A stretch of DNA of 32,100 nt from Thermodesulfobacteriaceae bacterium (GTDB lineage: Bacteria; Desulfobacterota; Thermodesulfobacteria; Thermodesulfobacteriales; Thermodesulfatatoraceae), in the NCBI GenBank assembly GCA_015494065.1, contig WGCA01000014.1, positions 1-32,100 on the forward strand, given 5' to 3'. Every line of letters starts with the position of its first letter. The first letter of the stretch is position 1. The translations under genes were made by a program, and so were the position numbers. Shown in pieces: positions 10,596 through 16,169 of this stretch. The notes under the pieces are model-generated. The model worked only from the letters and a program-made list of their open reading frames with translations. It searched no databases and was not told the origin of the DNA.

Positions 10596-10817
10596 ATGGC
10601 CAGACACAAAAAGATCGAACGGATGCGGGAAATTGAACGTCGTCGGCGCCGCCGGGCCAAACTTGCCAAACTGCGGGCCAAGGGCCTCTTCCCGCGCCCT
10701 GAAGGTTATGACCCCCGGGTTTATCCCTACGTGGCTTACGCCGTAGCCAAAGGTATAATGAGCCTGGAAGAGGCCCTTAAAAGGCTTGAGGCGGCCAAGA
10801 TCGAAGGATCTTCCTAA
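10596..10817 (+). CDS. Small basic protein of unknown function
   Basis: I do not recognise this 73-residue protein. It is a convincing gene: GAAGGAGGAAGG (10580-10591) lies just before the ATG. It follows hldA by 55 bases on the same strand. The N-terminal 35 residues are an Arg/Lys-rich helix ([20 protein letters not shown] and following), followed by a Pro/Tyr-rich linker ([20 protein letters not shown]) and a short amphipathic helix ([12 protein letters not shown]). There is no membrane segment, cysteine or known motif. The charge pattern suggests RNA, DNA or ribosome contact, which is inference. Its stop codon TAA (10815-10817) shares bases with the pdxJ stop on the opposite strand, so the two transcripts converge with no spacer. 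Confidence 0.72.
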
Positions 10818-11539
10818 CGGGCACGCTCAATCAAACAGAGCATTTCCCGGACCGCCTCTTTCATCCCCACCATGATGGCCCGGGCTATGATGGCGTGCCC
10901 GATACTAAACTCTTCAATCTCCGGGATAGCAGCCACCGGAGAAATATTGTGGTAGTGTAGCCCGTGGCCTGCGTGGACTTCAAAGCCCAGGTCCTTGGCC
11001 ACCCGGGCTGCCTCCTCTAAACGGGCAAATTCTAAGTCCATCTCCTCCGGGCCGCTGGCCTCCGCATAGTGGCCGGTATGGAGTTCTACCACGTCGGCCC
11101 CGGTCTTGGCCGCCGCTTTGAGCTGCTGGGGGTCAGGGTCAATAAAAATGCTCACCTTAAGCCCCACTTCTTTGAGCTCCTCCACCACTTCCCTCACCTT
11201 GGCGGTGCGTCCCTTTACTTTTAAACCCCCTTCGGTGGTTATCTCCTGGCGCCTTTCAGGGACCAGGGTCACCTGATCCGGACGGACCTCTTTGGCAAAC
11301 TTTATCATCTCTTCCGTAGCCGCCATCTCCAGGATGAGCTTCGTCTTAACAATTTCACGCAAAAGCCGCACGTCCCGGTCCTGGATGTGGCGGCGATCTT
11401 CCCTTAAATGCACCACGATGCCGTGCGCCCCTCCCAGCTCCGCCAGGACCGCCGCGTGGACCGGGTCTGGATAATGGACTTTGCGTGCTTCCCGGACCGT
11501 AGCTACATGATCCACGTTAACCGCCAGTTTGGCCGGCAT
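10814..11539 (-). CDS. pdxJ: Pyridoxine 5'-phosphate synthase (internal start)
   Basis: PdxJ condenses the PdxA product with deoxyxylulose-5-phosphate to give pyridoxine 5'-phosphate. From ATG 11539 the protein is 241 residues, the normal family length. It begins [19 protein letters not shown], the diagnostic PdxJ N-terminus, with Asp-His of the phosphate site. It continues through [70 protein letters not shown] and [14 protein letters not shown] strong GGAGGG (11550-11545) sits 5 bases before the ATG, so it probably initiates on its own. However, the same frame is open upstream into ybeY (see the longer feature). Confidence 0.92.
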
Positions 11540-12016
11540 ATACTCCCTCCTTAGTAAAAAATTCAAAGTCTTACGGGCCCTTTCCCCAAGCAATTGGGCC
11601 ATAACCGCGTATTCTTTGTCAAGCATAAGTTTGGCGGCATAGCGGCCCTGTTCGTGTTCATGCCCTAAAAGATGAAGCAGACCATGGACCGCCAGTAAGA
11701 GGAGGTAATGGCGTTTGGGAATTCCATAAAGCTCGGCCTCTCTTAAGGCGGTATCCACGGAAATAAGCACGTCCCCTAAGAGGCGGGGCTGTACCCCGGC
11801 AAAGGGGCCTTCTCTCTGAGAAAAGGAAATGACGTTGGTGGGGTAAGGTCTACCCAGGTAAAACTGGTTGTAGTGGGTTATGGTTTCGTCATCCACGAAG
11901 ACAAAATTAGCCTCTTTGTCCGGGATATTAAGCAGCGCCAGGGCCTCTTCCAGCTTGCGCCGCAGCCAGGCAAGGGGCAGAGACTTTGGCTGGTAATTTA
12001 AGATTTCAACTGGCAT
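10814..12016 (-). CDS. ybeY: Endoribonuclease YbeY read in frame into PdxJ (400-residue open frame)
   Basis: Residues 1-159 form a complete YbeY, the metal-dependent RNase that helps mature 16S rRNA 3' ends and takes part in ribosome quality control. Signs are the [14 protein letters not shown] strand, [20 protein letters not shown] and the metal motif [12 protein letters not shown] (three His). No stop codon separates it from PdxJ: the frame reads through LNFLLRREY directly into PdxJ Met160. The DNA there contains a run of six T (minus strand, 11561-11556). With five T the frame would read ...AAT TTT TAC TAA, giving a 156-residue YbeY that ends just before the pdxJ ribosome site. So this is either a real fusion, an assembly indel, or a slippage site. 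The YbeY part alone is 11540-12016. No good ribosome site is seen before ATG 12016. Confidence 0.82.
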
Positions 12017-12073: not shown

Positions 12074-13372
12074 TCATTCCTTTTTGGCTCGCTCAGGCCA
12101 GAGACGGTAAAACCTCTCTTTCAGGCCCTTTTCAAAGCCGTGTCCTTTGGGCCGGTAATAAGACCGGTCCTTCAACTTGTCAGGGAGATATTGCTGCGAG
12201 ACGAACCCTTCGGGAGCGTGGTGGGGGTAGACGTAGTCTTTGCCGTATCCCAGCCGGCGCATCAAAGCGGTCACCGGGTTGCGTAAATGAAGCGGCACCG
12301 GTTGAGCCCCGAATCTTTCCACGTCTTCCCGGGCCGCTTCCAGGGCCTGGTAAGCCGAATTACTTTTCGGGGCCAGGGCCACGTAAATCACCGCTTCTGC
12401 CAACGCCAGTTCCCCTTCAGGGCGGCCCAAAAATTCAAAGGCCTCTTTGGCGGCGAGCGCTATTTGCAAGGCCCAAGGATCAGCCAGGCCTACGTCCTCA
12501 GCTGCGGCTGCTACCAGCCGCCGTATGATAACCAGGGGGTCCTCGCCGGCCTCAAGCATACGTACCATCCAGTAAAGGGCTGCGTCAGGATCACTGCCCC
12601 GCAAACTTTTGTGAAAGGCCGAAAGCAAGTCATAATGTTCCTCTCCCTCCCGGTCGTAAAGGAGGGGTTTTTTAAGAGGGACATTTTGTAAAAGATCTCT
12701 GGTGACTTTCCGTTTACCGTCTTTTTCTTCTGCGATTTGGGCCAGGTTTTCGAGAAAATTAAGGGCCATGCGTGCGTCTCCCTCGGCACTTTCGGCCAGC
12801 ACCTCAAGCACCCCTTCTTCCACCTCTACCCCTTGGGTAGCCAAGACCTTGAGGGCTCGTTTGAGGATGAACAGCAGTTCTTCCCGGCTCAGAGGGTTCA
12901 GCCTAAAGACTTGGACCCGGGAGAGCAGAGGAGCCACGATCCGAAAAGAAGGGTTCTCGGTAGTGGCCCCTATAAGGGTAATCTTTCCGGTTTCGACAAA
13001 GGGCAAGAGAAAGTCCTGCTGGGCCTTGTTGAACCGGTGAATTTCGTCAATAAAGATGATGGTCTTTCGCCCATAGGCCCTGGCCTTTTGGGCCTGCTCG
13101 AGGGCCTTTCTAAGCTCTTTCAAGCCAGTGTCTACCGCTGAAACCGTTATAAACTCTGCCCCACTCTCTCTGGCCAAGAGGCGGGCCAGGGTGGTCTTTC
13201 CGCAACCCGGAGGGCCCCAAAAAATAAGGGAGGGGAGCTTTTTGGTCTCCAAAAAGCGGGTCAGAATCTTGCCGGGCCCGATGAGGTGCCCCTGGCCAAC
13301 AAAATCCTCCAGGCGTTTGGGACGTAGACGCTCGGCCAGAGGTGGTTGTGGCTCAAAAAGGGCCTTGGGCAC
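12074..13372 (-). CDS. rarA: Replication-associated recombination protein A (MgsA-type AAA+ ATPase)
   Basis: RarA acts at stalled replication forks as a clamp-loader-like ATPase. The 432-residue protein starts with the family hallmark PLAERLRPKRLEDFVGQGHL. It has Walker A GPPGCGKT (53-60), Walker B IIFIDEIHRFNKAQQDFLLP, sensor 1 LIGATTENPSF and the arginine-finger region APLLSRVQVFRL. The tetramerisation and helical C-terminal domains follow (SAFHKSLRGSDPDAALYW, EAGEDPLVIIRRL, EDVGLADPWAL, and the terminal GYGKDYVYPH). The start is GTG 13372, overlapping the stop of the 42-residue gene upstream as TAGTG. AAGGCAGG lies just upstream as a moderate ribosome site. The gap of 57 bases to ybeY downstream has no terminator. 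Confidence 0.95.
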   Translation of the reverse strand: MPKALFEPQPPLAERLRPKRLEDFVGQGHLIGPGKILTRFLETKKLPSLIFWGPPGCGKTTLARLLARESGAEFITVSAVDTGLKELRKALEQAQKARAYGRKTIIFIDEIHRFNKAQQDFLLPFVETGKITLIGATTENPSFRIVAPLLSRVQVFRLNPLSREELLFILKRALKVLATQGVEVEEGVLEVLAESAEGDARMALNFLENLAQIAEEKDGKRKVTRDLLQNVPLKKPLLYDREGEEHYDLLSAFHKSLRGSDPDAALYWMVRMLEAGEDPLVIIRRLVAAAAEDVGLADPWALQIALAAKEAFEFLGRPEGELALAEAVIYVALAPKSNSAYQALEAAREDVERFGAQPVPLHLRNPVTALMRRLGYGKDYVYPHHAPEGFVSQQYLPDKLKDRSYYRPKGHGFEKGLKERFYRLWPERAKKE

Positions 13373-13500
13373 TAACCTGCCTTCTTACGCTGTTTGCGGG
13401 TTTTTCTTTCCGCCAGAAACAGGCGAGTAAAGCAAAAAGTACACAAAGAAGTAATCAGATTCCAGGAAAAAAGCATAAAAAGGAGGGCTGAGCCTTTCAC
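13372..13500 (-). CDS. 42-residue single-span membrane protein, candidate NSS transporter small subunit
   Basis: This is a short gene between the symporter and rarA. The frame opens at GTG 13500, which overlaps the symporter stop as GTGA, and closes with TAG (13374-13372), which overlaps the rarA start as TAGTG. GGAGG (13513-13509) inside the symporter 3' end lies 8 bases before the GTG, an ideal ribosome site. The product begins [20 protein letters not shown]. It has one hydrophobic span (about 4-30, including a C-x2-C pair) and a strongly basic tail, [12 protein letters not shown], which should face the cytoplasm. Many bacterial NSS transporters have a tiny one-span partner next door (for example MetS with MetP). 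I see the same layout and topology here but cannot claim sequence homology. Confidence 0.7.
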
Positions 13501-15023
13501 TTTCTTTTCCTCCGCCTTTTATCTTGAAAATATACCAGAAAACAGAACAGGGCCATAATCGCGACCAGGACCTCCCGAGCCACCCAGGAAGTCCAGCGGC
13601 TTTCCGCGAGATACCCCGGAAGGATGGTGACCATCCACCAGCCGGTGATTAGAAGGAGAAAAAGGGGGGTTACGTAGCGCATGATAAAAAAGAAGACCCG
13701 AGGCAGTTTTATATAACCGCCGCGATTGATCTCCGCCCAGGCCTGAGCCGGATTAAAGGCCCAGAAGAAGATAAGTACCTCGCATAAAGCAAAGACCACC
13801 ACGAAGAAGGTCCCCGCCCAGAAATCCATTTCGTCAAGAGCACCGGCCAAAAAGACGGCCACGTGGGCCACGGAGAAAAGGACAAACATGGTGGCCAGGA
13901 CGGCGGTGCGGCGATCGAGCCTGAATTCGTCCTCCAAAAAGGCGATCACGGGCTGGGTAATGGCCACCGAAGAAGTAAGCCCGGCAAAAAAGAGGAGGAT
14001 GAACCAAAGGAAACCGAAAAATTGACCAAGCGGGATATTGGCAAAGATGGCGGGCAAACTGACAAAGGCTAGATTGAAAGCCCCACTGGCTGCAATCGTC
14101 TGGGCCGCGGCCACCCCGAAAAAGGCCGCCGCTGCCGGGATAGCAATTGAACCCCCGAGCACTACCTCGGCCAGCTCGTTAAGGGATGAGGCGGTCAAGG
14201 CCGAAAGGGTTAGATCGTCGTTCCGTTTGAGGTAGGAAGCATAGGTAATGATGGCCCCAAAACCCAGACTCAAGGTAAAAAAGACCTGGCCAGCGGCCGC
14301 CAACCATACTTTAGGGTTGGTTAGCTCTGCCCATTTGGGTTCCCACAGGAAGTTGAGCCCGGCCACCGCTGAGCCCATGGGGGTTTCCAGAGTAATGACC
14401 CTGATCATTAAGACCACGGCAAAGAGGAAGAGAAGCGGCATGGCTACCTTGGCCAACTTTTCGATGCCCCTGGAAATCCCCTTAATCAGCACAAAGACGT
14501 TTAACCCCATGGTAACCAGGAAAAAGAAATAGGCTTTAAGACTCGGACGATAAAAGTCCCCTTCCCCCATTCCGGTATAAGCGTTGAGAAATTCTTTAAA
14601 AGGGGCCAGGTAAGTGTGAGGATCGGTTGAGGCCGGGACTTTGGGGAGCATCCCCAAAAGAGACATAACCGCGTACCCCAAGGTCCAGCTTTCAATATAG
14701 ACGTAATAGCAAGAGACCACGAAAGGAACAAAAAGGCCCAGGACCCCTAAATATTTGGCCACCGGGTGTGACCAGAGGAGGCGAAAAATGGCCGGGGTGG
14801 TCCCGTGACCGCGTATCCCTCCGTAACGCCCGATGGCCCATTCCACCCACATTAAAGGGATAGCGATCAAGACCAGGGAAATCATGTACGGGATCATGAA
14901 GACCCCGCCCCCGTTCTGGGCCGCCTGGGTGGGGAAACGCAAGAAATTACCCAAACCTACCGCGTTTCCGGCCATGGCCAAAATCAAACCTATCCTGGTG
15001 CCCCAGTGTTCACGATTTGGCAT
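13497..15023 (-). CDS. Sodium-dependent neurotransmitter/amino-acid symporter (NSS/SNF family)
   Basis: This inner-membrane transporter couples Na+ flow to uptake of an amino acid or related amine. The 508-residue protein has about twelve hydrophobic spans. TM1 carries the family block [20 protein letters not shown] (17-36) with the unwound AVGLGN segment that binds Na+ and substrate, followed by [12 protein letters not shown]. The TM6 region includes [18 protein letters not shown], and TM8 [18 protein letters not shown] supplies Na2-site residues. The substrate is not evident. GGAGGGAGG lies a few bases before the ATG. The C-terminal tail is basic (QDKRRRKRK) and encodes the ribosome site for the next small gene. 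It follows a histidine kinase by 51 bases, probably on the same transcript. Confidence 0.92.
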
Positions 15024-15074: not shown

Positions 15075-16169
15075 TCAAGTCTCTGGTTCAACTTCCTGTG
15101 AAAGGGGCCGACGCCTTTCCGGACGGCGCCGGTCAAATGGAAGGCTTAGCCGAAAAACGGTAGGTTGGTAGGCATTTTCTACCTTTACCTCCCCGGCCAG
15201 TTCTTCGGTGATTCTGGAAACCAGGGCCAGACCCATGCCAAAGTGTCCCGGCTTGGTGGTAAAAAACGGGTTAAAGATAAAGGGAAGGGCCTCAACCTTT
15301 ATTCCTTCCCCGTAATCCTTTACCCAAAAATCGACTTTTTCCTGATCCGCGGTACACCTGAATATTACCGGCCCTTTTTGCCCTACCGCCTGGTGGGCTT
15401 CTAGGGCGTTTTGGATTAACTCTACCAAGGCTTCGGCTAGCAGTTCTGGATCAGTGTAGAAGGCAAGAGAAGGTATCTCACGGGGTAAGCTAAGCTCCGG
15501 CTCCTCCCCGCTAATTTCCAGCTGAAAACGCTCTTTCACAAGTTCTATTATCTCTTTTAGCTCAACCAGACGAAACCTGGGGGTGGGCATAAGCACCAAG
15601 CGGCTTAGGGCCTGTAATAAGCTTTCTAGACGTTCACACTGGTAAACCAAAGCCGCGGCGTAGGTTCCTGCCCGCTGGGGATTTTCCTTCAATCTCCGGG
15701 CCAACCCCCCGATTACCAGAATGGGGTTACGGATATGGTGGGAAATGTCTGTCAACATACGCCCTAGAAAGGCCAAATGGCGGGTCTTTCTTAAGGATCG
15801 TTCCAGGGCCTTTACCTGCGAAACGTTTTGAAAAGTAAAAACCACGGGCGAAATTTCCCCCATATCATAACGGACGAAATGTAGATGGGCCACAAACCCT
15901 TCTTTCCCCCTGGGAACTAAAAAACCCTCCCCTTCGTAAACCCCCTTTTCCGCTAGTATACGTTGAATATTGGGCCAGAATATCTGCCGATCTTTTTCGT
16001 CAAAAAAGTAAGCAATATTTTTCCCTTTTAGATCTTCCTCAGCCAATAATTCCAGGGCGCGCTGGTTGGCATAAAGGATCTCGCCCTCGGGTTTTAGTAA
16101 AATGACCGCGGCCTTTATAAGATCTAAAATAGACCTAAAATCCACTTCGAATTCGTGAGGAAAAGCCAT
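15075..16169 (-). CDS. PAS-domain sensor histidine kinase, orphan
   Basis: The 364-residue protein has no membrane span, so it is cytoplasmic. A PAS domain (about 10-115, with AVILLKPEGEILYANQRALE and KGKNIAYFF) leads into a dimerisation helix. The H box is DISHHIRNPILVIGG, phosphoacceptor His144, followed by His145 where most kinases have Glu. The HATPase domain has N box VELIQNALEAH, G1 VKDYGEGI, F box FNPFFTTKPG and G2 FGMGLALV. The tail is rich in Arg and Pro. No response regulator gene is adjacent. The NSS symporter starts 51 bases downstream, so the kinase may serve substrate-linked control of transport or simply share the promoter. Signal and partner are unknown. Confidence 0.9.
   Translation of the reverse strand: MAFPHEFEVDFRSILDLIKAAVILLKPEGEILYANQRALELLAEEDLKGKNIAYFFDEKDRQIFWPNIQRILAEKGVYEGEGFLVPRGKEGFVAHLHFVRYDMGEISPVVFTFQNVSQVKALERSLRKTRHLAFLGRMLTDISHHIRNPILVIGGLARRLKENPQRAGTYAAALVYQCERLESLLQALSRLVLMPTPRFRLVELKEIIELVKERFQLEISGEEPELSLPREIPSLAFYTDPELLAEALVELIQNALEAHQAVGQKGPVIFRCTADQEKVDFWVKDYGEGIKVEALPFIFNPFFTTKPGHFGMGLALVSRITEELAGEVKVENAYQPTVFRLSLPFDRRRPERRRPLSQEVEPET

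Follow-up and report, generated by a model that had tools for sequence, protein, structure and literature searches.

The small gene that lies between an NSS symporter gene and rarA in a Thermodesulfobacteriaceae bacterium (assembly GCA_015494065.1, contig WGCA01000014.1) very probably encodes a one-span protein that serves LeuT-type Na+/amino-acid symporters as a dedicated subunit. The window is the whole stretch of DNA that was analysed, 32,100 nucleotides in length. Genes of this kind occur almost only together with LeuT-type symporters, being adjacent to the symporter gene, fused to it or unlinked from it. A sequence-only reading of the window had suggested a one-span NSS subunit in the manner of MetS, and this suggestion is supported by conservation, by co-occurrence across the phylum, by natural fusions and by co-occurrence when the two genes are unlinked.

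The small gene and its neighbours

The small gene (13372-13500, minus strand) starts with GTG at 13500-13498, stops with TAG at 13374-13372 and encodes 42 amino acids, with a predicted single membrane span and a basic tail. A GGAGG ribosome-binding site (13509-13513, minus strand) is located 8 nt 5' of the GTG, within the symporter coding sequence, and relatives have a purine-rich or GGAGG-like site at the equivalent position. The start codon overlaps the symporter stop (TGA, 13499-13497) in a GTGA (13497-13500, minus strand), which is ATGA in many relatives; at the other end, the stop codon overlaps the rarA start (GTG at 13372) in a TAGTG (13370-13374, minus strand), and this second overlap is not kept in relatives. 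The frame, the site 8 bases before the start, both overlaps and the hydrophobic span followed by a basic tail had been described from the letters, and each is found in the sequence exactly so. With the small gene overlapping the symporter gene, its product would be made by translational coupling.

The symporter (13497-15023, minus strand; 508 aa) has LeuT of Aquifex aeolicus as its best solved homologue (E about 3e-203), the two being 60% identical over 509 columns. By sequence comparison it is an orthologue of LeuT, in the same clade, and not an NSS of the MetP type; in the symporter tree, the partners belonging to the LeuT clade stand apart from the MetS-type NSS. The earlier assignment to the NSS family was right, while the identity as LeuT and the separate locus of the A. 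aeolicus partner had escaped it. Directly upstream of the LeuT gene is a PAS/histidine-kinase gene (15075-16169, minus strand). Elsewhere in the window, a 400-aa frame (10814-12016, minus strand) fuses YbeY (residues 20-142) to PdxJ (163-395), two enzymes that are unrelated to each other.

Conservation and selection

Is such a short frame a gene at all? It is intact at 17 of 17 orthologous junctions, i.e., loci from the same taxonomic order as the window with an orthologous symporter 75-100% identical, and its start is ATG in 15 of them and GTG in two. In relatives, it opens 4 or 11 bases ahead of the end of the symporter gene. The core, including LCTFCFTR.F, is near-invariant across these loci; the tail is variable yet basic in the order to which the window belongs. 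Most differences fall at third codon positions (0.177, 0.038 and 0.505 at positions 1, 2 and 3, respectively), and the pooled pN/pS is 0.125 in frame, whereas the two shifted frames give 1.19 and 6.96. For the core, dN/dS is 0.01-0.09 where computable, with synonymous sites near saturation.

The small frame is a real gene under strong purifying selection. The sequence-only reading had proposed to look at this junction in relatives for a kept frame and a low dN/dS, and neither stops nor frameshifts appear there; its argument against chance gains from the 17 intact junctions and from the contrast in pN/pS between the true and the shifted frames. A chance open frame, which the short length and the GTG start might bring to mind, is almost inconceivable in view of the many phyla that carry the protein, the purifying selection and the lack of decoy matches (reversed decoys gave 0 profile matches at the threshold used for the small protein).

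Distribution and gene architecture

Profile matches to the small protein lie directly 3' of most LeuT-type symporters (46-100% identical to the query), and the protein is found in Desulfobacterota, Aquificota, Dadabacteria, Ignavibacteria/Bacteroidota, Omnitrophota, Acidobacteriota, Planctomycetota, WOR-3 and others. Among 297 genomes of the phylum, the symporter (E 1e-100) is present in 34 and the small protein (E 1e-3) in 30, all of them within the 34; the four symporter genomes without the small gene (G013, G014, G015 and G017) hold only one divergent paralogue each. Each species was sampled through a representative genome, in many cases a MAG, and the Fisher p for this co-occurrence (4e-37) ignores kinship. 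The tests themselves are phylogeny-uncorrected, but in several lineages the gene has moved, become fused or been lost, and we take this as an argument for independence.

Some observations count against a subunit. A symporter clade from sister genera, 43-46% identical, is without the small gene and has tRNA or other genes in its place, and the small gene was not found in G355, G391, G381 and five more genomes that have a symporter, several of these genomes being draft MAGs.

The architecture was followed on a FastTree phylogeny of 150 symporters, rooted on MetS-type NSS, in which 145 rows form the LeuT clade. Within this clade, the small gene is downstream of the symporter in 97 rows, fused to it in 11, upstream in one and unlinked in 11, and 25 rows have none at the locus. 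The unlinked state was confirmed in the genomes of L125, L130 and L160 and in the sampled Aquificaceae; for L124, L126 and L127 the label was taken from their clade. Ten of the 25 rows without the gene belong to the paralogue clade; for 13 more, outside it, the genomes were searched, and eight carry a copy elsewhere, as does G493. For one of those eight (L180/L303), the copy merely lies further 3' of the same symporter.

The fast-diverged LeuT paralogue clade without the small gene (L018-L028) is a natural comparison group for the subunit role. In a Hydrothermota MAG (L182), two distinct small-subunit-like frames follow one symporter, and second copies are seen in G368, which has two unlinked ones, and in G183, where the second is weak.

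In the 11 fusions, the small helix is in frame at the symporter N-terminus, and a linker of ∼12 residues separates it from the position that corresponds to LeuT R5. The carriers are Acidobacteriota, Aminicenantes and single MAGs labelled Deltaproteobacteria and Fibrobacter. The fusion group has a weak support of 19 on its own; joined by L264, in which the small gene is separate and upstream, it forms a clade well supported at 99, so that a single fusion event is likely, though short of proven.

The small gene in Aquifex and the Aquificaceae

In one of the sampled genomes (G336), a protein matches PDB LeuT at 100% identity over 506 residues, and the genome is taken, on this basis, as that of A. 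aeolicus strain VF5. It carries a 51-aa small protein, MKGEALIFMLFSWLLICSLSTFCFTMLLTHQEKPSEKRETFISEEEREEIT, which over 39 residues shares 59% identity with that of the window; its gene begins a few bases past the tyrS stop, about 230 kb from the LeuT gene. The two genes are mostly unlinked in the Aquificaceae, being adjacent in only three of the genomes. Across 61 sampled genomes of the family, with LeuT defined by 67% identity or more, 22 have both LeuT and the small protein, three LeuT alone, two the small protein alone and 34 neither. The small protein is thus present in 22 of 25 genomes with LeuT vs 2 of 36 without it (p 2.5e-11, kinship ignored). The small genes for which LeuT was not detected are L220 (G373) and L225 (G379), where incomplete assemblies or another partner are possible.

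The small genes of the Aquificaceae are under purifying selection (pN 0.233, pS 0.789), and 20 of 21 of their products terminate in (E/D)EIT. This acidic tail is conserved in Aquificota (L194, L197 and L216-L238) and seen in Desulfurobacteriaceae as well, while the order of the window has a basic one instead; the (E/D)EIT tail may possibly be a short binding motif. A search of the open-access literature gave no description of a LeuT partner, and in the papers covered A. aeolicus LeuT is worked on by itself.

The gene arrangements bear on another explanation, i.e., that the frame merely sits within the symporter transcription unit, either with a leader or regulatory function or as the gene of a small membrane protein unrelated to the symporter. 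The junction, with its geometry of translational coupling, would suit either, but the fusions, the separate upstream copy, the unlinked copies that track LeuT and the constraint at the amino-acid level make this explanation very improbable.

Proposed role and structure

What might a subunit of this kind do? Fusion and co-occurrence suggest that the small protein binds the symporter. Its single helix would probably have the N-terminus outside and the basic C-terminus in the cytoplasm, an orientation that fits an N-terminal fusion onto the cytoplasmic N-terminus of the symporter. The AlphaFold2 model of a natural fusion (pLDDT 83.5, pTM 0.87) keeps the LeuT fold, with a TM-score of about 0.83 against LeuT when scaled by query length, and has a confidently predicted extra helix at residues 7-33, with pLDDT 79-91.

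In LeuT, R5-D369 keeps the inner vestibule closed, and the N-terminus is ordered when the transporter is outward-facing and mobile when it is inward-facing (PMC7260283). Since the fusion joint is just ahead of the inner-gate arginine, a helix end near the N-terminal gate and TM1a is favoured. More tentatively, the cytoplasmic end of the helix might lie close enough to this gate (LeuT R5-D369, TM1a) to stabilise or tune it. In a covariation analysis of 126 pairs, underpowered with a Neff of 89, the top pairs lean to symporter columns 438-499 (TM11-TM12), in part inconsistently with the topology, and were set aside as uninformative.

When purified on its own, A. aeolicus LeuT binds substrate and, in proteoliposomes, transports alanine (PMC10945697). 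It follows that the small protein is not absolutely required for basic transport in vitro, and its part is probably to tune, assemble or stabilise the symporter and not to catalyse. The contribution may alternatively consist in assisting assembly. Such a role, in assembly or stability, is the chief alternative to a gate-tuning helix: the small protein would be a factor for the assembly, stability or membrane insertion of the symporter, and would leave the finished symporter or contact it loosely, without becoming a permanent subunit. Small one-span proteins often are factors of these kinds. The activity of LeuT alone after heterologous expression (PMC10945697) would agree with such a factor, but the fusion clade holds the small helix covalently, in a 1:1 ratio, through its diversification, and we regard this account as rather unlikely.

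For A. aeolicus, we consider a further reading possible, with slightly more doubt than conviction: LeuT would natively be a two-chain transporter, its unlinked subunit MKGEALIFMLFSWLLICSLSTFCFTMLLTHQEKPSEKRETFISEEEREEIT would sit beside the N-terminal inner gate and alter both gating and transport kinetics, and the data on LeuT alone would describe an incomplete complex.

Implications

Neurotransmitter transporters have LeuT of A. aeolicus as their standard structural model, and the models of the serotonin and dopamine transporters draw on its structures and dynamics. The open debates on the behaviour of the inner gate and TM1a, for which detergent and membrane differ, are based on LeuT alone. 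A partner that is conserved with LeuT even after relocation of its gene bears on the measurements made on LeuT alone. Moreover, two branches of the bacterial NSS would have small subunits, and the small protein defines a family missing from the curated libraries searched (Pfam and NCBIfam).

Relation to MetS and other known systems

MetPS, an importer of methionine and alanine, has MetS as its small subunit, and MetS is reported to be essential. MetPS itself has been described as an NSS importer of two subunits (PMC3219685). The small protein resembles MetS in that it has one span and about 30-60 aa, is encoded beside an NSS symporter, aligns from Met1 and has a basic tail. It differs in its motif, GWxF..SW......FCF (W13, C23) instead of GAWIM......GG, in its partners, which are of the LeuT clade, and in that it is also found unlinked and N-terminally fused.

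In Pfam and NCBIfam, no small-protein member reaches the cut-off of NF033493, NF033494 or PF16951; the best NF033493 E among 24 diverse members is 0.0031, and the window protein gave no match. When the profile of these 24 was aligned by hhalign with that of eight MetS of the same phylum, most of them found beside NSS symporters ∼30% identical to that of the window, the match had a probability of 96.3% and an E of 1.7e-9, gapless from Met1 through the span; column shuffles reached at most half the score, and the reversed profile a third. The comparison with MetS that the sequence-only reading had called for came out below the curated cut-offs and, between profiles, clearly positive, and its surmise of an undescribed family agrees with the lack of any Pfam or NCBIfam model at cut-off. 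A DUF3311 match (E 0.12) is far below its own cut-off and was rejected as chance.

Could the protein simply be one more MetS of the known family, with nothing new about it? The hhalign result, with controls that score much lower, and the same size, position and topology would all be expected of one; scores below the three cut-offs, a different motif and LeuT-clade partners are not, and ordinary membership seems unlikely to us. The small protein is better regarded, from these alignments, as a distant MetS relative that falls outside the family when judged by the curated tests.

A profile search of the PDB gave no small-chain relative at E up to 10. CydX, AcrZ and KdpF are named among small accessory proteins (PMC10903887). 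These are likewise small one-span proteins with a large membrane partner, and a sequence relation to them was not found. On the side of the symporter, the comparison is with LeuT of A. aeolicus (PDB 2A65 and others), of which the window symporter is an orthologue and on which the natural fusion can be modelled.
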